Source: Bacteroidetes bacterium B1(2017) (GTDB taxonomy: Bacteria > Bacteroidota > Bacteroidia > UKL13-3). Taken from it: DNA of 64,000 nt. The stretch spans positions 16,761 to 80,760 of the forward strand of contig NKJG01000010.1 in the NCBI GenBank assembly GCA_002256395.1, in the 5' to 3' direction. A program made the translations under genes and the position numbers. Numbering within the stretch: the stretch's first letter is position 1; every line of letters starts with the position of its first letter. This document shows, piece by piece, positions 1-47,582 of the stretch. The notes under the pieces were generated by a model. It was given only the letters and a program-made list of their open reading frames with translations, had not been told where the DNA came from and ran no database searches.

Positions 1-831
1 CTAGATAGTGCCAACAACCTTTTTGTTGGTCAGCAAGGGTATTGTATTAAAGTAATTAAGTATAACAAAAACCAACAAGTAGAAGTTGAACAATGCTATA
101 AAAATAGAACAGAACTCATGAGCTTTACAGGTAAGGTATTTCCACAGGTTACCTATGTATATGCCGACAGCAATTTAGTAGAAGTAAAACGCCTGATAAA
201 TACCGATAGCCTAAAACTCATAGTAGCTTCTCAAATTAAATTTATATACGATAGCTATGGCGACCAAATTGATTGGGAATACTACTATACCGATGGATCA
301 AAAAAACCTGATACCCTAAAATCAAACCTAATTTTGCACATACAAAATTGGATTGCTTCTCATGCCTTATACCCACAAACCTATGAGCCTATACTTTTTG
401 GCTATGTAAAAGAAAGCAGCATTTTAAGTAATAATATAAAAGAAGCCAATAGCGAGAAATATTCCATATACCTAGAGTTCTACTTAAACGACTCTAACAA
501 TGTGAAACAGAAATTTACGGGTGATTTTCAGTTCGACTATCAATATGAGCTCGATGCGATTGCCTATAAAACAGAGCACACAGGCAACTCAACCAATTAC
601 TCGTGGAGCGATAGAGATTTTGACGATTGGAAAGCCATCTATTGCAAAGCTCCCACTGCCGAAGAGCTAAAACAAAAGGAACTCAAAAACAAAGAGCAAA
701 TGGAAAAGACCCTAAGCATCCTTGATGAGGCCCTAAAAGGCGATAACCCCGACATAACAATCTCGGGCGATATGGATAAGAAGACGCTGAGAGAAACGCG
801 GAGAGCCTTGAAGAAGGCAGCGAAGAAATAG
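1..831 (+). CDS. Hypothetical protein, 5'-truncated by the window edge
   Basis: The frame of the listed ORF (118..831) stays open back to base 1 (LDSANNLFVGQQGYCIKVIKYNKNQQVEVEQCYKNRTELMSFTG...), so the true start lies outside the window. Confidence 0.7.
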   Translation, partial: LDSANNLFVGQQGYCIKVIKYNKNQQVEVEQCYKNRTELMSFTGKVFPQVTYVYADSNLVEVKRLINTDSLKLIVASQIKFIYDSYGDQIDWEYYYTDGSKKPDTLKSNLILHIQNWIASHALYPQTYEPILFGYVKESSILSNNIKEANSEKYSIYLEFYLNDSNNVKQKFTGDFQFDYQYELDAIAYKTEHTGNSTNYSWSDRDFDDWKAIYCKAPTAEELKQKELKNKEQMEKTLSILDEALKGDNPDITISGDMDKKTLRETRRALKKAAKK

Positions 832-833
832 AA

Positions 834-922
834 GGCATGGCTTGCCTGCCTCCGCTAAAGCTACGGCAGACAAAGCATGGCATGGCATGGATGTGCGCTG
901 CGCTTACTTAGGCATGGTAAGA
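834..922 (+). repeat. GCATGG-modular intergenic element, copy A
   Basis: aaggcatgg...cctgcctccgctaaagctacggcag...gcatggcatggcatgg...ttaggcatggtaagacc; starts 3 bp after the upstream stop codon. Confidence 0.75.
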
Positions 923-1057
923 CCTGCGGAAGGCAAACGGCCAGAAGCCAGAAGCTAGAAGCCAGTTGCCATTCTTTAGAGGCTGTTGCGGTTTACGTAG
1001 GAAGTTAAATATAGGTGAAAATGGTAGAAAAGAATTAATATTTGTAAACGAAAACAT

Positions 1058-1597
1058 ATGATTGAACTAGACTATACCCTTCAAGAAAACGATTTTTTAG
1101 AATTTCAACTTTACTTTTTTAAGAGTGAAGGAAAATTCAAATCTATACTACTTAAAACATGGATGGTCTTTATGATGTTTGTAGGTGTTTTTATTGGGTT
1201 TTCAATCTGGAAGAATCTTTTTTTTGAGGCAGCAGTTGTGGCAGTAATGTCTATTATTGTTTCCTTTATTCATCCATGGAGGATGAGACGTACGTATAAA
1301 AAAATATTAAAGAAAGACTGCAAAGTTTTTGAAAGCAGATTAAATACTCCCTTTCATTTACTGGTGGATGAAAACCAATTTCATATAAAAAGTATACTTG
1401 GCGATACAAACTTAAATCGAAATCAACTTGCCAAAATTGTAGAAACAGGCACTCATTTCTTTGTTAAATTTAAGTTAGAAGCGGTAATAATTCCTAAGAG
1501 CGGTCTGAGCCAAATAGAACAACTTAGAGCCGACCTAAAACAAGTAGCACTAACGAACCAAATAGAATACAAAGAAGATTTGAATTGGAAATGGTAA
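1058..1597 (+). CDS. YcxB-like membrane protein
   Basis: Two N-terminal TM segments and a C-terminal domain resembling the YcxB family (LNTPFHLLVDENQFHIKSILGDTNLNRNQLAKIVETGTHFFVKF). Confidence 0.6.
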   Translation: MIELDYTLQENDFLEFQLYFFKSEGKFKSILLKTWMVFMMFVGVFIGFSIWKNLFFEAAVVAVMSIIVSFIHPWRMRRTYKKILKKDCKVFESRLNTPFHLLVDENQFHIKSILGDTNLNRNQLAKIVETGTHFFVKFKLEAVIIPKSGLSQIEQLRADLKQVALTNQIEYKEDLNWKW

Positions 1598-1606
1598 TAG
1601 AAAGAA

Positions 1607-1700
1607 GGCATGGCATTGCCTGCCTCCGCTAAAGCTACGGCAGACAAAGCATGGCGTTGCATGGTCGTAAGCTTCGCATACTTAGGCATGGTATGACCTG
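1607..1700 (+). repeat. GCATGG-modular intergenic element, copy B
   Basis: Same module order as copy A: ggcatgg - cctgcctccgctaaagctacggcag hairpin - gcatggcgttgcatgg - cttaggcatggtatgacc. Confidence 0.75.
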
Positions 1701-1712
1701 CGGCGGGGAGTG

Positions 1713-3009: not shown

Positions 3010-3062
3010 AGCCAGCTGCCAGCTGCCAACTGCCAGAAGCCAGAAGCCAGAAGCTAGCTGCC
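3010..3062. repeat. CCAGAAG/CCAGCTG short-period repeat
   Basis: gccagctgccagctgccaactgccagaagccagaagccagaagctagctgcc. Confidence 0.7.
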
Positions 3063-3079
3063 ATCAACCCATACTCACC

Positions 3080-3409: not shown

Positions 3410-3972
3410 TGGAAAGCGTGAGGCTTGAAAGCGTGAAGCTTGAGGATGCTTTGCTAGCCGAAGCTTTAGCGAAGGTTAGTGATTTGGCAATTTTCTTGCT
3501 GGTAATTGGCAGTCTTTTGCTTCTTGTTTCATGTGATGAAAACAATACTCATTCTTCCGATAATAGAAATGAACAGAAATCAGATAGCGGAATATTTTTA
3601 TCTCCTAGCCAATTTACGCCCATAACTTTTTTGCAGTCTGTTACACCAAAAACCAAAGTCGACTCGAGTTTAAATACTTTTGTGATATACACTCATTTTC
3701 CAGCAGATTGGGTAAAAGCCTCATATATCGACACCTTACTTACCCTTCTCAACTCGCAACAAAAATGCATGTGTGTGAAGGATCCAATGGGCTCTTATAT
3801 ACCATTTGATAAACAAGCCACTATTGGAGGATATGCGCAACTATTTTTATTATCCTATATTCATAAAACCCCTCTTGATCTTGGGTTGTATTGCTGCCCT
3901 ATTGGGGATAAAAAGGTGATGGAGGAAATTTTGAGGTGGTGGAAGGGAAACAAAAAGGTAACTGGAAATTAG
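3409..3972 (+). CDS. Hypothetical lipoprotein (start uncertain)
   Basis: LAIFLLVIGSLLLLVSC signal/lipobox. The first ~25 aa are encoded by low-complexity/repeat DNA, so the real start may be further downstream. Confidence 0.5.
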   Translation: MESVRLESVKLEDALLAEALAKVSDLAIFLLVIGSLLLLVSCDENNTHSSDNRNEQKSDSGIFLSPSQFTPITFLQSVTPKTKVDSSLNTFVIYTHFPADWVKASYIDTLLTLLNSQQKCMCVKDPMGSYIPFDKQATIGGYAQLFLLSYIHKTPLDLGLYCCPIGDKKVMEEILRWWKGNKKVTGN

Positions 3973-13661: not shown

Positions 13662-13850
13662 TAAATGCCGAAACACCTTGTTGGAAGAGGGATTTGGGAG
13701 GTGAGCATTGAGATTTGGGAGTGGAGAAATGGGGTAAAATATCTATAAAATCTATTTTTTGTAGAATAACCCGATCCTAATTTTTGCTTCTTGAATTACC
13801 CAAAACCAGAAAAAGAGATTACACCCTCCAAATTTTGCTCTCATAATCCA

Positions 13851-14208
13851 CTTGCCGAAACTGGAAATCGTCTTGCCGAAATTGGAAATTGTATTGCGGA
13901 TGCTGGAACAAGCATTGTAGACGAAGGAAATGGCATTGCCGATGCTGGAAAAAGCATTGCCGACGATGGAAATGGCCTTGCCGATGCTGGAAATATCCAT
14001 GTCGACCTTGGAACAAGCTCTTGCCGACGATGGAAATGGCCTTGCCGATGTTGGGAATTGTCTTGCCGAAGCTGGAAATCTCGATGTCGACCTTAGAATA
14101 AGCATTGCCGATGCTGGAAATCTCCATGTCGACCTTGGAATAAGCATTGCCGAAGCTGGAAATGGCCTTGCCGATGCTGGAAATCTCCATGTCGACCTTG
14201 GAAAAAGC
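13851..14208. repeat. 21-bp tandem repeat array, 17 units with one 1-bp insertion
   Basis: Units of the type (c/a)ttgccgatgctggaaatggc and catgtcgaccttggaataagc; 17 x 21 + 1 = 358 bp. Confidence 0.9.
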
Positions 14209-14306
14209 CCTGTCTAAGATTCCTTTTCAATAAATGAATCGCATTCTTATCAAGAGTAGTTTTTTAATTCGCACTATAATTAGGGTATGAATAAAACAAT
14301 ACTATT

Positions 14307-21984: not shown

Positions 21985-23160
21985 ATGTCAGTTTATCAAC
22001 AAGCCGGAAAAATACCTAGCAAACGCCATGTAGTATTTCGTCAACCCAATGGTAATTTATACCACGAAGAGCTTTTTGGAACAGAAGGTTTTGCTGGCAC
22101 TTCGTCGCTAGTGTACCACTTGTATCCACCCACTATGGTTAAAGAACATGGTCAGCCTTACTCGGTTCGACCCGAAGTAGCTATAGAAGATAACTTGCAA
22201 GCCAGAAGTTATATGGGCTACCAAGTTGAACCGAATGAAGACTATATTGAAAGTCGTAAAACGCTTTTTATAAATGCCGATATGACAATTGGTATGGCTG
22301 CTCCTAGCAAAAGCCTAACAGAGTATTTCTTTAAAAATGCCGATGCCGATGAAATGATATTTATTCATAAAGGTTCGGGTACTTTAAAAACAATGTATGG
22401 CCATATACCTTTTGAGTATGGCGATTATATTATTATACCTAGGGGTACAGTTTACCAATTGCATTTTACTACCACCGATAATAAATTATTGATAGTAGAA
22501 TCGTTTGGTCCAATTGAAACGCCTACTCGTTATAGAAACAATTATGGTCAGTACCTAGAACACTCTCCATTTTGCGAACGCGATTTTAAATTGCCTAAAG
22601 GATTAGAAACAATTGACCAACAAGGTGAGTTCTTAATTAAGATTAAGAAGCGTGGGTTAATCTATCCATATGTTTACGAAAACCATCCGTTTGATGTGGT
22701 AGGTTGGGATGGCTATTGCTACCCGTATGCTTTCTCTATCTTTAATTTCGAACCTATCACAGGTCGCATACATATGCCGCCTCCAATACACCAAACCTTC
22801 CAAGGCAAGAACTTTGTTATTTGCTCGTTTGTGCCAAGGTTATATGATTACCATCCAGATGCTATTCCAGCTCCATACCACCATAGTAATATAGATAGCG
22901 ATGAGTTATTGTATTACGTAGATGGCGATTTTATGAGCCGTAATAATATCCAAAAAGGACAAATTACCTTACATCCAGGAGGTATCCCACACGGACCACA
23001 CCCGGGTGCTATAGAACGCAGTATTGGCAAAGCTGCCACCAACGAATTGGCGGTTATGATTGACCCTTTTAACCCTGTAAAAATTACCGAGGAAGCAATG
23101 AAGTACGAGCTGCAAGACTACTATCAAAGCTGGGTAACAAAGAAGCCGGTAGACGCTTAG
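21985..23160 (+). CDS. hmgA: Homogentisate 1,2-dioxygenase
   Basis: Full-length homogentisate dioxygenase-like sequence (IHMPPPIHQTFQGKNFVICSFVPRLYDYHPDAIPAPYHHSNIDSDELLYYVDG). Confidence 0.92.
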   Translation: MSVYQQAGKIPSKRHVVFRQPNGNLYHEELFGTEGFAGTSSLVYHLYPPTMVKEHGQPYSVRPEVAIEDNLQARSYMGYQVEPNEDYIESRKTLFINADMTIGMAAPSKSLTEYFFKNADADEMIFIHKGSGTLKTMYGHIPFEYGDYIIIPRGTVYQLHFTTTDNKLLIVESFGPIETPTRYRNNYGQYLEHSPFCERDFKLPKGLETIDQQGEFLIKIKKRGLIYPYVYENHPFDVVGWDGYCYPYAFSIFNFEPITGRIHMPPPIHQTFQGKNFVICSFVPRLYDYHPDAIPAPYHHSNIDSDELLYYVDGDFMSRNNIQKGQITLHPGGIPHGPHPGAIERSIGKAATNELAVMIDPFNPVKITEEAMKYELQDYYQSWVTKKPVDA

Positions 23161-23162
23161 GG

Positions 23163-23234
23163 AAGGCATGGCGTTGCTTGGCATTGCATGGACGGTCTGC
23201 CAAGGCAGACCTAAGGCATGGTAAGACGCTGCGC
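23163..23234 (+). repeat. GCATGG-modular intergenic element, copy C
   Basis: ggcatggcgttgcttggcattgcatgg-acGGTCTGCCaaGGCAGACCtaa-ggcatggtaagacg; begins 2-3 bp after the hmgA stop. Confidence 0.75.
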
Positions 23235-23342: not shown

Positions 23343-24497
23343 ATGTATAACGACTTAACCGAAGTAAAGAACTTTACTTACACTGGTGCCAAAATTTTTG
23401 ATCAGGCACAGGATTTCCTTCCTATTAATGGAACGGATTATGTTGAATTGTATGTGGGAAACGCCAAGCAAGCGGCGCATTTCTACAAAACTGCCTTGGG
23501 TTTCCAAGACCTAGCCTATGCTGGTTTAGAAACGGGTCTTAGAGATAGAACATCGTATGTTTTACAACAAGGTAAAATAAGGTTGGTTCTTACCACTCCG
23601 TTTGATCCAGAAAGTGAAATTGCCCAACACCTACGCATGCATGGCGACGGGGTGAAAGTGATTGCTCTATGGGTGAATGATGCCTATGATGCCTATGAAC
23701 AAACTATTTCACGCGGTGCTAAATCGTATATGGAACCTAAAACGGTTACCGATGCCGATGGTGAAGTGCGCATGAGTGGTATTCATACCTATGGCGAAAC
23801 GGTTCATATTTTTGTGGAGCGTAAAAACTACAAAGGTTTATTCTTACCTGGTTACGAAAAACTAGAAACAGGTTATAACCCTGGCTCAACAGGTTTAAAA
23901 TATGTAGATCATATGGTGGGCAATGTAGAATTGGGAGCCATGAACAAATGGTCGGATTTTTATGCCAACGTAATGGGATTTGCAAACCTAGTAACCTTTG
24001 ACGATAAAGATATTTCTACCGAATATACCGCTCTTATGAGTAAGGTTATGACCAATGGAAATGGCTATATCAAATTCCCTATTAACGAGCCTGCTATTGG
24101 CAAAAAGAAATCGCAAGTAGAAGAGTATTTAGATTTCTATAGAGGTGCGGGCTGCCAGCACATTGCTGTGGCTACAGATGATATAGTATTTACCATTAGC
24201 GAAATGCGCAAACGTGGCGTAGAATTTTTATACGTACCCGGCACTTACTACGATACTGTTTTAGACCGTGTAGGTATTATAGAAGAAGACCTTAATGAGT
24301 TAAAGAAATGGGGTATTATGGTAGATCACGATGAGGAAGGATATTTATTACAAATATTCACCAAACCGGTAGAAGACCGCCCAACCTTATTCTTTGAAAT
24401 TATCCAACGCAAAGGCGCCAAATCATTTGGCAAAGGAAACTTCCAAGCCCTCTTCGAATCCATAGAAGCAGAACAAGCCCGCCGCGGAACGCTTTAA
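23343..24497 (+). CDS. hppD: 4-hydroxyphenylpyruvate dioxygenase
   Basis: FYKTALGFQDLAYAG...DHMVGNV...YLLQIFTKPVEDRPTLFFEIIQRKGAKSFGKGNFQALFESIE. Confidence 0.95.
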   Translation: MYNDLTEVKNFTYTGAKIFDQAQDFLPINGTDYVELYVGNAKQAAHFYKTALGFQDLAYAGLETGLRDRTSYVLQQGKIRLVLTTPFDPESEIAQHLRMHGDGVKVIALWVNDAYDAYEQTISRGAKSYMEPKTVTDADGEVRMSGIHTYGETVHIFVERKNYKGLFLPGYEKLETGYNPGSTGLKYVDHMVGNVELGAMNKWSDFYANVMGFANLVTFDDKDISTEYTALMSKVMTNGNGYIKFPINEPAIGKKKSQVEEYLDFYRGAGCQHIAVATDDIVFTISEMRKRGVEFLYVPGTYYDTVLDRVGIIEEDLNELKKWGIMVDHDEEGYLLQIFTKPVEDRPTLFFEIIQRKGAKSFGKGNFQALFESIEAEQARRGTL

Positions 24498-24498
24498 G

Positions 24499-24598
24499 AA
24501 GCATGGTGTTGTAAGCCGTCGCTATCGCTTTGGCATACAACGCATGGCATAGCATGGACGTACCGCCATGGCGGAACTAAGGCATGGTAAGAGCTTCG
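24499..24598 (+). repeat. GCATGG-modular intergenic element, copy D
   Basis: gcatgg-tgTTGTAagccgtcgctatcgctttggcaTACAAc-gcatggcatagcatgg-acgtaccgccatggcggaactaa-ggcatggtaagagcttcgc. Confidence 0.75.
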
Positions 24599-24650: not shown

Positions 24651-24689
24651 AAAAAAAGGCCCTCACGCGCAGCGTAATGGCCTTTTTTT
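24651..24689. terminator. Bidirectional intrinsic terminator between convergent hppD and lipoprotein genes
   Basis: AAAAAAAGGCC...GGCCTTTTTTT. Confidence 0.85.
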
Positions 24690-24696
24690 GTTTTGT

Positions 24697-24828
24697 AGCG
24701 CGAAGCGTCTTACCATGCCCTAGGCCCGCGCCCGCGGACCGCCCATGCATTTTATGCCAAAGCGATAGCGAGGCATAAAATACCATGCGTAATTTGCCAA
24801 GCGATAGCGAAGGCAAATTACACCATGC
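24697..24828 (-). repeat. GCATGG-modular intergenic element, copy E (inverted)
   Basis: gcgcgaagcgtcttaccatgcccta...ATTTTATGCC/GGCATAAAAT and GTAATTTGCC/GGCAAATTAC hairpins...ccatgcc; ends at the lipoprotein stop codon. Confidence 0.8.
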
Positions 24829-24829
24829 C

Positions 24830-25447
24830 TTATTTAGGCAATGCTTTCTTTGTTTGAATAATCACCCTCTCCTGCTCACTCAGTAATTCGAGCAAAGGCT
24901 TAGTGGATGGCAATTTATTAGATTGGTATTTTTGGATACTAGGCAGAGTTAAGCTTATTTTTAGGAGCACGCGTAAGTCTTCCAGCTTTTGCGAATTTGT
25001 TTGGAGTTGGCTTAAGAGTGTTACGTTTCTTAAACATTTAATAGAGTCTTGCAACTCACTTTTTTTGAGTAAGGCAATCACTTGCTCTCTAATTAAACTA
25101 TCGCTAATAGAGTTAGCCATACTACCTGCATCCTCATAATATTGTTGCGACTTTGAATGATAGTCATTAAACTCAGATTCTAATTTAGAGGAAGCTACTT
25201 GTTGATTGGCAAAGTTGGTATTAAGGCTCTCTAAGGATTTATTTTTTGAAGACAATTCAGTATAAATTTCCTCCACCAAATTAGTGTAACCTTTGCCGCT
25301 TCTAAAACTACCATAATCTTCCTCAGCCACCTTCACTAAAGCCTCCGGCTCCAAGGTATCAGATGAGTTACGCAGTGTATCGTTGCTTCCCCCTTTACCA
25401 CATGATACAAAAAATAAAATACAGAGTATATAAAGAATGTTTTTCAT
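24830..25447 (-). CDS. Hypothetical lipoprotein
   Basis: Start revised to MKNILYILCILFFVSCGKGG (lipobox). Confidence 0.7.
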   Translation of the reverse strand: MKNILYILCILFFVSCGKGGSNDTLRNSSDTLEPEALVKVAEEDYGSFRSGKGYTNLVEEIYTELSSKNKSLESLNTNFANQQVASSKLESEFNDYHSKSQQYYEDAGSMANSISDSLIREQVIALLKKSELQDSIKCLRNVTLLSQLQTNSQKLEDLRVLLKISLTLPSIQKYQSNKLPSTKPLLELLSEQERVIIQTKKALPK

Positions 25448-25480: not shown

Positions 25481-25545
25481 AGCATGGCGTTGCATGGCAT
25501 AGCATGGGCGGGCGCTGCGCTTCCTTAGGCATGGTAAAAGCTGCG
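25481..25545 (+). repeat. GCATGG-modular intergenic element, copy F
   Basis: agcatggcgttgcatggcatagcatgggcgggcgctgcgcttccttaggcatggtaaaagctgcgc. Confidence 0.75.
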
Positions 25546-25564: not shown

Positions 25565-25604
25565 AAAAAAAAGACCACCACGCTCCGCGTAGTGGTCTTT
25601 TTTT
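25565..25604. terminator. Intrinsic terminator downstream of fbp
   Basis: AAAAAAAAGACCACcACGC-tcc-GCGTaGTGGTCTTTTTTT. Confidence 0.85.
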
Positions 25605-25612
25605 ATTCTGCA

Positions 25613-25745
25613 GCGCAAAGCGTCTTACCATGCCCTAGGCCCGCGCCCGCGGACCGCCCATGCATTTTATGCCAAAGCGATAGCGAGGCATAAAATTCCA
25701 TGCGTAATTTGCCAAGCGATAGCGAAGGCAAATTACACCATGCCT
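25613..25745 (-). repeat. GCATGG-modular intergenic element, copy G (inverted)
   Basis: Nearly identical to copy E; abuts the fbp stop codon. Confidence 0.8.
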
Positions 25746-25749
25746 TCTT

Positions 25750-26745
25750 CTACTTCATAAACTCCAACACCTTATCCACCATGTTTTTCGATCCCATGAT
25801 TACGGGAACGCGTTGGTGAATTTCGGTAGGCTCTACATCTAATACACGCTCTGTGCCTGTAGTAGATTTACCACCTGCTTGCTCGGCTATAAACGACATT
25901 GGAATACACTCAAACATTAAACGCAATTTGCCTTTTGGAGCTTTTGCTGTTGGTGGGTAAATAAACACACCACCTTTTAATAAGTTACGGTGAAAATCTG
26001 CCACCATAGAGCCAATATATCTTGCAGTATACGGACGGTTTGTTGCCTTATCTGTTTCTTTTACCCAGTTTAGGTAATTGGTAACACCTTGAGGAAACTC
26101 ACCTGCATTACCCTCGTTAATAGAATATACTTTTCCATCTTCTGGGGTTTTAATATCGGGGTGACTTAAACAAAACTCGCCAATACTTGGATCGAGTGTA
26201 AAGCCATATACACCCTTACCGGTGCTATATACCAACATGGTTGAAGTACCATAAACTACATAACCTGCAGCAACTAATTTATTACCAGGTTGCAATACAT
26301 CATTTAAGGTTGGTTCGGTACCACTTTCTGTAACCCTGCGGTAAATAGAAAAGATCGTACCAATAGAAACGTTTACATCTATATTACTCGAACCATCTAA
26401 AGGATCAATGCAAATAACATATCTACCATTTTTAGAATAGGCACCCTGCAAAGGAATCATATCATCGTTTTCTTCGCTGGCCATGGCACATACCTCGCCA
26501 CCTTTTTCTAGAGCCCAAATAAAGGTTTCGTTACCAATAATATCTAGTTTCTTAACATCTTCGCCTTGCACATTCACAGAACCATACTCGCCCAAAATTT
26601 GGGTTAAGCCGGCTTTGTTTACCTCTCTACTAATAATTTTTGCGGCAATACCAATATCACGCAATAAGCGCGAAAGCTCGCCTTTGGCATACGGGAAATC
26701 TTGTTGTTTTTCAATAATAAACTGACCGAGTGTAGTAATTGACAT
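25750..26745 (-). CDS. fbp: Class 1 fructose-1,6-bisphosphatase
   Basis: [13 protein letters not shown]...[29 protein letters not shown]. Confidence 0.95.
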
Positions 26746-31012: not shown

Positions 31013-31957
31013 TTATTTAAGTCGAACCAAGGTAGCGCCACTACCAAACTGAAGGATATCGGCATCGGTAAAGTTTAGCACCATCTCTGGGTGTTTGCTA
31101 AGGTAGGTTCTAATCTTATTCTTTAAATAGGCATTGCCTACACCATGAATAAAGATTATTTCGGGCATATGATGCACAAAGGCTGCTTCCAAGGTTTTAG
31201 CAAACACATCCATTTGAAAGGCGGTGATGTCTTCGGCAGTGCCATAGCCATTTTGCTTTAAGGCATCGTAATGCAAATCTATAATAGAAGCAGGTTTAGC
31301 TTTAAAATCTATTCCCTTCTCCTCTATTTTCTCGGCAAAATCTTTTGTTTTAAGTTTGGCAAAATCTACCTTTTCTACTTCTTCATCTAACCTAAACACA
31401 TAAGCTTGTTTGTTTAAGAAAGCGCAGTGTTTCCAAAAATTATAAAAGGTTTTGGCATTAAACTGTAAACTTGTTGTTACCGAATTTGCGGTCTTAACCG
31501 TTACACTTTCGTAAGGCAAAATAATAAATTGGTAAGGCAACCATTTATCAAAGCTACTCAAAGTTGTTTTTCCAAGTTGCTTGGTTTCGTCGCGTTCTAG
31601 ATACATACTTTTTTCTAAATGAAACACTGCTTGCTCTTTAGTATATACCAAAATGGTAGCATGCTCACTTAAATTATTATGTACGTGTATGGTTAAATCT
31701 GTTTCGCCAACCCGTTCAAAGGCTAGGAAAATTCCTAAAGGTTGGTTGGTGGCAACTCTAAAAGGCTTTGCAGGTTCGGCCTTTGGATTATTACCCGCCT
31801 TGTCTTCAAACTTTATCTTAACTACTTCCGAGATTAAAACAGGTATCTCAAAATCGCTATCTACGGTAACACCAATTTGATTCTTACCAAGGAGGGACGT
31901 TACAATCCCCTCCATGTTTTCGTTTAAGAATCTTACTTTATCACCGAGTTGTATCAT
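31013..31957 (-). CDS. DUF2027/Smr domain-containing protein (MutS2 C-terminal-like)
   Basis: N-term MIQLGDKVRFLNENMEGIVTSL; C-term Smr-like IIDLHYDAL...IIFIHGVGNAYLKNKIRTYLSKHPEM. Confidence 0.85.
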   Translation of the reverse strand: MIQLGDKVRFLNENMEGIVTSLLGKNQIGVTVDSDFEIPVLISEVVKIKFEDKAGNNPKAEPAKPFRVATNQPLGIFLAFERVGETDLTIHVHNNLSEHATILVYTKEQAVFHLEKSMYLERDETKQLGKTTLSSFDKWLPYQFIILPYESVTVKTANSVTTSLQFNAKTFYNFWKHCAFLNKQAYVFRLDEEVEKVDFAKLKTKDFAEKIEEKGIDFKAKPASIIDLHYDALKQNGYGTAEDITAFQMDVFAKTLEAAFVHHMPEIIFIHGVGNAYLKNKIRTYLSKHPEMVLNFTDADILQFGSGATLVRLK

Positions 31958-32117
31958 ATTTTTTATCCGCCGAAGCTTTAGCGCAGGTGGACCATGTTTT
32001 CGTTTAAGAATCTTACTTTATCACCGAGTTGTATCATATTTTTTATCCGCCGAAGCTTTAGCGCAGGTGGACCATGTTTTCGTTTAAGAATCTTACTTTA
32101 TCACCGAGTTGTATCAT
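31912..32117. repeat. 80-bp tandem repeat (2 full + 1 partial 45-bp copy) including the 5' end of the Smr gene
   Basis: ccatgttttcgtttaagaatcttactttatcaccgagttgtatcat + attttttatccgccgaagctttagcgcaggtgga recurs at 31912, 31992 and 32072. Confidence 0.95.
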
Positions 32118-32119
32118 GT

Positions 32120-33217
32120 TTATACGTTAAACTTAAAATGCATTACGTCGCCGTCTTGCACAATATAGTCTTTTCCTTCCATGCTAAGCTTACCATTTTC
32201 GCGGCAAGCAGCTTCGCTACCAAATTTAAGGTAATCTTCTAAGTGAATTACCTCCGCTTTAATAAAGCCTCTTTCAAAATCGGTATGTATTACACCAGCA
32301 GCTTGAGGAGCTTTAAAACCACGGTCGATAGTCCATGCACGCACTTCTTGCACACCAGCAGTAAAGTAGGTTATTAGGTTCAGCAAATGATAAGCACCAT
32401 GGATTAATTTAGCCACCCCAGATTCTTCCAAACCAAGGTCGCTCAAGAAAGCCTGACGATCTTCGAAACTATCTAAACCAGCAATATCCGCTTCAATAGC
32501 AGCGCTAATAACTAATACTTCTGCCTTTTCGTTCTTTACCGCTTCTTTTACTTTATCTACATGCACATTGCCTTTTACAACGCTGCCTTCATCTACATTA
32601 CATACGTATAATACAGGCTTAAGAGTAAGCAAACATAAGTCGGCCACTTGCTCTAATTCGTCTTCGCTAACTTCTAGTGTACGTGCATTTAAACCGTTCT
32701 CTAAATGATCTTTAAACTTAATTAAAGCCGCTTCTGTTTTCACAGCCGTTTTATCGCCTGTTTTAGCCGCACGAGTTGTTTTAATTAATTTCTTTTCTAT
32801 AGAATCAATATCCTTCAACTGTAGCTCCGTATCAATTACATCCTTATCGCGCAACGGGTTAACGCTACCATCTACGTGTATAATATTATCGTCTTCAAAG
32901 CAACGCAATACATGAATAATAGCATCGGTTTCTCTAATATTACCCAAGAACTGGTTACCCAATCCTTCGCCTTTACTAGCGCCTTTTACTAAACCAGCAA
33001 TATCTACAATCTCAATAGTGGTAGGCACCAAACGATTAGGCTTTACAAATTCGGCCAATTTATTTAAGCGAATATCGGGAACGGTAATCACCCCAACATT
33101 TGGCTCAATAGTACAAAAAGGAAAGTTTGCAGCTTGCGCTTTTGCATTACTTAAGCAATTAAATAAGGTTGATTTTCCAACATTGGGCAAGCCCACGATT
33201 CCGCATTGTAAAGCCAT
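32120..33217 (-). CDS. ychF: Redox-regulated ATPase YchF
   Basis: MALQCGIVGLPNVGKSTLFNCLSNAKAQAANFPFCTIEPNVG; C-terminal TGS-like domain. Confidence 0.97.
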   Translation of the reverse strand: MALQCGIVGLPNVGKSTLFNCLSNAKAQAANFPFCTIEPNVGVITVPDIRLNKLAEFVKPNRLVPTTIEIVDIAGLVKGASKGEGLGNQFLGNIRETDAIIHVLRCFEDDNIIHVDGSVNPLRDKDVIDTELQLKDIDSIEKKLIKTTRAAKTGDKTAVKTEAALIKFKDHLENGLNARTLEVSEDELEQVADLCLLTLKPVLYVCNVDEGSVVKGNVHVDKVKEAVKNEKAEVLVISAAIEADIAGLDSFEDRQAFLSDLGLEESGVAKLIHGAYHLLNLITYFTAGVQEVRAWTIDRGFKAPQAAGVIHTDFERGFIKAEVIHLEDYLKFGSEAACRENGKLSMEGKDYIVQDGDVMHFKFNV

Positions 33218-47412: not shown

Positions 47413-47499
47413 GCTTCTGTCTCAGATTTAATGAGGCAAAATACATATCAAAAGGCACAAGAAACCCACAAAGAATTGACATTTGGGAAATACTGGCAG

Positions 47500-47582
47500 C
47501 TGGCTTCTGGCTCCTAGCAGCTGGCAAAAAGTTATCTACCTTCCAAGAGCCAGAGGCCAGTAGCCAGAAGCCAGAAGCGGCC
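47500..47582. repeat. CCAGAAG-family inverted repeat
   Basis: ggcagctggcttctggctcc ... gccagaggccagtagccagaagccagaagcggcc. Confidence 0.65.

Follow-up and report, generated by a model that had tools for sequence, protein, structure and literature searches.

Among the closest described systems, REP sequences often lie less than 20 bp from 3′ ends, occur as inverted dimers and may supply TAG stops (PMC3733652), and BOX elements are modular, with constant ends and optional inner modules (PMC3049150). The first-pass annotation of the window (the whole stretch of 64,000 nucleotides analysed here) described a family of intergenic elements built on the word GCATGG and knew of no named family with this layout; that nothing known resembles it is not supported, given the position, inversion and TAG supply of REPs and the modularity of BOX. 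The seven copies that it placed, A to G, are real, all lying at or within a few nucleotides of where it had put them (Table 1). GGCATGG occurs 20 times in the window against 5.9 expected, and none of 100 shuffles was as high.

Table 1. Copies of the GCATGG element and neighbouring terminator-like hairpins in the window (gene calls from our own script; words of copies E and G are on the minus strand)
Feature	Position	Strand	Words	Slots and ends	Surroundings
Copy A	834..928 (tail to 928/929)	+	835, 875, (880), 885, 912	cassette in slot 1, 841-874; slot-3 palindrome 891-909; tail TAAGACCTGCGG	begins 2 nt past stop of gene 118-831 (+)
Copy B	1607..1703	+	1608, 1649, 1659, 1686	cassette in slot 1; slot-3 palindrome GTAAGCTTCGCATAC; end word GGCATGGTATGA	begins 9 nt past stop of gene 1058-1597 (+)
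Copy C	23165..23227	+	23166, 23176 (GCTTGG), 23186, 23216	without cassette; slot-3 palindrome GGTCTGCCAAGGCAGACC	begins 4 nt past stop of 21985-23160 (+; homogentisate-dioxygenase-like)
Copy D	24501..24598	+	24501, 24542, 24552, 24582	cassette in slot 1; slot-3 palindrome GTACCGCCATGGCGGAAC	begins 2-3 nt past stop of 23343-24497 (+; HPPD-like glyoxalase-family dioxygenase); tail-to-tail with E
Bidirectional terminator-like hairpin	24651..24690	.			between D and E
Copy E	24699..24829	-	24828, 24788, 24748, 24718	two cassettes (slots 1, 2); slot-3 palindrome GGTCCGCGGGCGCGGGCC	begins at stop of 24830-25447 (-)
Copy F	25482..25545	+	25482, 25492, 25502, 25529	without cassette; end word GGCATGGTAAAA	not at a stop; ~34 nt upstream of start codon of gene 24830-25447 (-); tail-to-tail with G
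Bidirectional terminator-like hairpin	25565..25604	.			between F and G
Copy G	25614..25744	-	25743, 25703, 25663, 25633	two cassettes; slot-3 palindrome same as E	begins 5 nt past stop of 25750-26745 (-; fructose-1,6-bisphosphatase)

Four words and three slots

The source assembly (G000; 5.50 Mb, 225 contigs) comes from a lake bacterium and is the single genome of its species. GCATGGN4GCATGG, with at most one mismatch, gave 95 matches in this genome against 2 for the reversed control, and GGCATGGTAAGA gave 27 against 1. Stretches around the matches were extracted and their words chained by script into 54 candidate chains, which left 50 copies once low scores and duplicates were dropped. The family thus counted has about 50 copies across its own assembly, with conserved edges and unique flanks, and these are defined by GCATGG patterns, a definition that misses diverged copies.

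Exactly four GCATGG words are present in 40 of the 50 copies; seven copies have three words, and three of these seven carry a degenerate first word, GCAGGG, upstream. The gaps between word starts are (10,10,27) in 21 copies and (41,10,27) in 7, the others being minor variants such as (40,40,30). The copy at C137:22574 stands apart, with eight words in 10-nt steps and without a slot-3 palindrome. The consensus reads RRRRAAG-GCATGG-slot1-GCATGG-slot2-GCATGG-rCG-palindrome-TTAG-GCATGG-TAAGACCTKCGG. Slots 1 and 2 each hold, between constant words, either a 4-nt joint (CGTT 22, TGTT 13, CATA 12, CATT 8) or a hairpin cassette of ~34 nt. Slot 3 is nearly always a 15-18-nt palindrome, preceded by rCG and followed by TTAG, TTGG or CTAAG. 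The words are better conserved than the joints. In the flanks, conservation covers a purine run from -7 to -1 and the tail TAAGACCTKCGG to about +17, with weak purines to +24, so that the purine run and the tail mark the limits of the unit; a further tail, CCTKCGG, and the purine-rich 5′ edge recur in most genome copies.

The modular order reported by the first-pass annotation holds genome-wide, as does the swapping of modules around constant GCATGG joints, slots 1 and 2 being filled by joint or cassette across the 50 copies. The cassette, by contrast, is not obligatory (it gives way to plain 4-nt joints in C and F and is doubled in E and G), the 'short G+C segment' is present but is itself the slot-3 palindrome, and the start and terminal words are less constant than described: copies D and F start with AAGCATGG instead of GGCATGG, B ends in TATGA and F in TAAAA. 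Copies A and B are 90% identical across 88 nt.

Most cassettes, a few degenerate ones apart, share one fold shape, in which the CATG of one word pairs with the CATG of the next, followed by an arm of ~10 bp and a GC-N4-GC inner loop. Among copies the arms vary yet remain largely complementary; GTTGCCTGCC, GTAATTTGCC, ATTTTATGCC, GTAGAGTGCC and ATAGTTTGCC are all matched by such a partner. In slot 3, pair 10-22 is UA in 17 and GC in 11 of 32 aligned copies of the 27-gap class, and the covariation score among eight copies of the 30-gap class is 0.357 against 0.146 when shuffled. After the slot-3 palindrome comes TTAGGCATGGTAAGA, not at once the T run that would complete a G+C hairpin as an intrinsic terminator; separate terminator-like hairpins lie downstream of the element in several copies. 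An open reading frame through the element was considered and rejected, as an ATG frame runs to the slot-3 TAG in some gap classes and is out of frame in others.

Two direct repeats of 184 bp (24651-24834 and 25566-25749), each comprising terminator and element, are 93% identical and flank a 205-aa gene with no Pfam match, which relatives lack between HPPD and FBPase. Despite the 93% identity, the terminator stems of the two blocks differ on both arms, a pattern compatible with either selection or template switching.

Placement at stop codons

Of the 50 copies, 28 start between -12 and +13 nt from a same-strand stop (27 counted by the placement script plus copy G, 5 nt from its own stop), where random intergenic placement in random orientation gives 2.2% (p = 9e-32). 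None of the 50 is reversed at a stop, and no tail lies within 15 nt of a convergent stop. The first-pass annotation had placed the proximal word near a stop in fixed orientation in most copies; this describes six of the seven window copies, which begin 0-9 nt past a same-strand stop, but not F, and genome-wide the orientation stands while adjacency to stops is a majority and not a rule. Several of the copies off same-strand stops are inverted-pair partners near promoters (F is one), and several others are unpaired and away from any stop. An ordinary degraded REP or MITE, showing neither stop nor orientation bias and no modular swapping, is clearly not what the genome-wide copies represent.

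In five copies the element itself supplies an in-frame TAG stop, giving C-termini SMA*, GMA* or GMV*. A YRTA first joint, the rarer joint type, is found in all five TAG-supplying copies and in 5 of the 45 others (p = 1.2e-4; the second count was made by eye). Several orthologues of a glycosyltransferase end in CMETL* or alike and the protein here ends in CMKESMA*, from which it follows that the native C-terminus and stop have given way to those of the element. For an amino acid permease, the orthologues are too distant to reveal the ancestral stop.

Within 400 bp of one another, nine tail-to-tail pairs and two tandem pairs were found by script and no head-to-head pair; a tenth tail-to-tail pair (C9:582012/582145) was found by eye. 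Several tail-to-tail pairs enclose a terminator-like hairpin. The upstream genes that were scanned are functionally unrelated chromosomal genes, as expected of a spreading repeat and not of a regulon, and no transposase or integrase is among them. Integron-like gene cassettes were rejected on the same count, and also as core syntenic genes, HPPD and FBPase, are among those at D, E, F and G.

Distribution and origin

The family was found only in G000 among 198 genomes searched, with 58 matches to the strict pattern there; by pattern search, it is absent from 18 congeners and about 180 other relatives. Single strict-pattern matches in G017 (a congener; a different tandem), G117 (only two words) and G163 are the exceptions. 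A pattern scan of a collection of genome contigs, own genome excluded, gave no match, and one viral-contig match (n = 1) was taken as chance since the multi-word architecture is absent from it. In the retrieved relatives, the stop of the HPPD and FBPase orthologues is followed by a short spacer and often by a terminator, with no element; at the place of the 24651-24690 hairpin, relatives have a terminator without GCATGG elements. The element-free orthologous sites and the absence in relatives therefore argue for arrival and spread within one lineage.

The 50 copies sit on six contigs, 49 of them on five, and a 390-kb contig (C187) has none. The assembly has 7% estimated contamination and, at 5.5 Mb, exceeds the 1.7-4.3 Mb of its congeners. 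Given this large size, the contamination and the uneven placement of copies, it may be a mixture of two organisms.

We favour, with moderate confidence, a short interspersed repeat that is specific to this lineage, belongs to the REP/BIME/BOX kind and reached its roughly 50 sites by being copied whole. The unit would have been copied mostly to the few nucleotides around a stop codon, upstream of the terminator of the gene. It would spread as a non-autonomous mobile repeat, through some enzyme acting in trans; movement as such we infer. Neutral insertion alone fails to explain the exclusive orientation at stops, and both position and direction may reflect a strand-specific target preference together with selection against insertion elsewhere. 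As 3′-UTR RNA, the element would have at most a mild effect, as a barrier to 3′ exonucleases or as a supply of stops.

The search for a mobiliser and for insertion marks gave little. Seven Y1 transposase matches were found in the genome, and no GCATGG element lies within their 3-kb loci, which removes a RAYT as the obvious mobiliser. Two of these Y1 (RAYT-like) genes (L031, L034) adjoin palindrome arrays of their own, CAAGGGCCTGAAGGCCCTTG and ACCCCNCTGGGGT, which are probably REPs unrelated to the GCATGG family. Terminal inverted repeats are absent, the ends RRRRAAGGCATGG and GGCATGGTAAGACCTKCGG not being inverse complements. The shared flank word averages 5.22 against 4.87 in shuffles, a value reached by 5 of 200 shuffles, and there is no clear target duplication.

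The main rival to a dispersed repeat remains a selected RNA element of the 3′ UTR, in which neighbouring CATG words pair to close hairpins, the chain shields or controls the 3′ ends of mRNAs and an RNA-binding protein possibly reads GCAUGG. The fixed orientation and position after stops, the copies lying between stop and terminator at several sites, and the complementary changes in slot 3 and in the cassettes all speak for such a role. Folding of whole copies is nevertheless unremarkable (z from -2.5 to +1.4), at least seven copies lie upstream of promoters or off stops, and the element is found in one species only, beside genes of no common function. Arm complementarity is indecisive between RNA and DNA roles, because selection can make it and so can template switching in DNA, which can yield complementary arm changes without selection (PMC8794818). 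We therefore caution against taking complementary changes in hairpin arms as proof of RNA function, and consider the 3′-UTR role unlikely on balance.

Less probable still is an array acting at the DNA level, whose GCATGG words, at steps of ~10 bp (one helical turn), would bind a nucleoid or domain protein at gene ends and bracket intergenic regions. BIMEs serve as binding sites for host proteins in enterobacteria (PMC2817692), and the word steps of 10, 27-31 and 40-41 nt, the bracketing of intergenic regions by tail-to-tail pairs and the conservation of words over joints are in keeping with such an array; against it, the 27-nt steps break the phase, there is no candidate protein and the only ~50 copies are unevenly spread. 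A short-tandem-repeat (STRR-like) array grown by slippage and not by unit dispersal is very improbable, even with the eight-word copy at C137:22574, the two different tandem arrays of other words that two sister genomes carry just past one orthologous stop (L172, L178) and the other tandem words after a stop at 2821-2960 of the window, because slippage cannot make, at dispersed sites, a palindrome slot, a fixed word number (four in 40 of the 50 copies) and a conserved tail that is not itself repeated.

The cassette of the GCATGG family resembles a hairpin family found across the genus. The hairpin core GCCGAAGCTTTAGCG reaches 21 exact copies in a sister species, and in sister species the cores have complementary arms and are set among other tandem words: GAATTAC/T heptamers in G001 and GTTTGCTTTGCA-like words in G013. 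The core recurs, with variable but complementary arms, at loci L182-L193 and at 3457-3476, 31969-31988 and 32049-32068 of the window. It is conceivable, if doubtful, that the genus holds a general system of modular repeats targeting 3′ ends, with a shared core, arms free to vary but complementary, tandem words peculiar to each species, and an enzyme able to recognise the 3′ ends of genes and to insert the repeats directionally at stops. The top 3′ word of G013, GGTTTGAACC, was rejected as a 3′-specific equivalent, being a palindrome iterated genome-wide and also inside genes.

Other repeats were observed alongside. In the window, tandem STRR-like words (GGTCGCTAGTCGCTGG, GCCAGAAGCCAGAAG) come after either a stop codon or a copy of the element at 2821-2960, 933-972, 3011-3064 and 47493-47581. 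An 80-bp unit lies in tandem at 31912-32151 (two identical copies and one partial, 69%), between genes 31013-31957 (-) and 32120-33217 (-), and 21-bp tandem repeats at 13809-14232 overlap ORFs 13752-14147 (-) and 13819-14190 (-). The nearly palindromic 14-mer TCGGTTTGAACCAA is highly iterated, with 609 copies in one 4.1-Mb congener, 225-257 in three other congeners and 24 in G000 (reversed control 0-1), and almost none outside the genus. It lies within genes as well as between them (in G013, e.g. L194-L213), in which it is like a HIP1-type motif.

The dispersed-repeat reading would make the family a clear-cut natural example of a short repeat that spread within one species, with almost exclusive position and direction at stops, where it sometimes takes over the stop codon itself. 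As near relatives have element-free sites, each locus offers a test of how the element affects mRNA ends and of how its target is chosen.

Comparison with known repeat families

A comparison with Rfam 15 at gathering score, proposed in the first-pass annotation, matched only a 5S rRNA in the window and left the element without a family. No published match was found in the literature: literal strings led to unrelated fields only, and searches for comparable repeats to the families named here.

The REP/BIME/REPIN families of the GTAG and CGTC superfamilies (PMC3733652, PMC3116915, PMC2817692) are likewise dispersed, intergenic short palindromes in inverted pairs, with complementary stem variation and an abundance that differs among related strains or species. 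Like REPs and REPINs, GCATGG copies are intergenic, near the 3′ ends of ORFs and found as inverted doublets. The GTAG tag is absent from the family consensus on both strands. Read on the minus strand, many copies have CGTCC after the slot-3 palindrome, with the A/T of the tag varying (A, T, G); set against the yardstick of a CGTC-type REP, an 8-9-bp stem starting with A/T pairs and a 4-5-nt loop, the first C is paired, the loops are 3-4 nt and the first stem pairs are G-C. The GCATGG family differs from REP/BIME/REPIN in its fixed scaffold of four direct words and three slots, in being strictly one-way at stops and in that it is not associated with the Y1 (RAYT-like) genes of the genome, at least two of which adjoin other palindrome families. 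The element is REP-like in behaviour, but membership among REPs fails on the GTAG tag and on RAYT association, and membership among MITEs on inverted ends.

Outside the REPs, BOX of Streptococcus pneumoniae (PMC3049150) is alike in architecture, with constant end modules and optional inner modules, hairpins and a range of few related species. BOX, however, has a variable number of boxB modules, terminal inverted repeats and target duplications, whereas the GCATGG family has a word number nearly fixed at four and ends that are not inverted. SPRITEs of S. pneumoniae (PMC3049150) are likewise enriched near the 3′ ends of coding sequences, but are AT-rich and terminator-like (an 18-bp duplex plus a U tract); the GCATGG element lacks a T run, and at several sites a terminator distinct from it follows downstream.

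In the Bacteroidota, Porphyromonas gingivalis has BrickBuilt (PMC4596501), likewise an intergenic element specific to one species, in which direct repeats stand between a leader and a tail. BrickBuilt is a MITE whose tandem units measure 23 nt and whose ends are inverted, and it lies 49-591 nt from genes; the GCATGG words, by contrast, are 6 nt long and stepped by 10 nt, hairpin slots are set among them, and the majority of copies are found no more than 13 nt from a stop. The TAACTGA repeats of the Beggiatoaceae (PMC4679880), also present in some Bacteroidetes, are short intergenic direct words tied to a codon landmark, but they lie just upstream of start codons as plain heptamer arrays without hairpin slots or tail. 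What is unusual in the GCATGG family is the fixed four-word scaffold together with its one-way orientation at stops.
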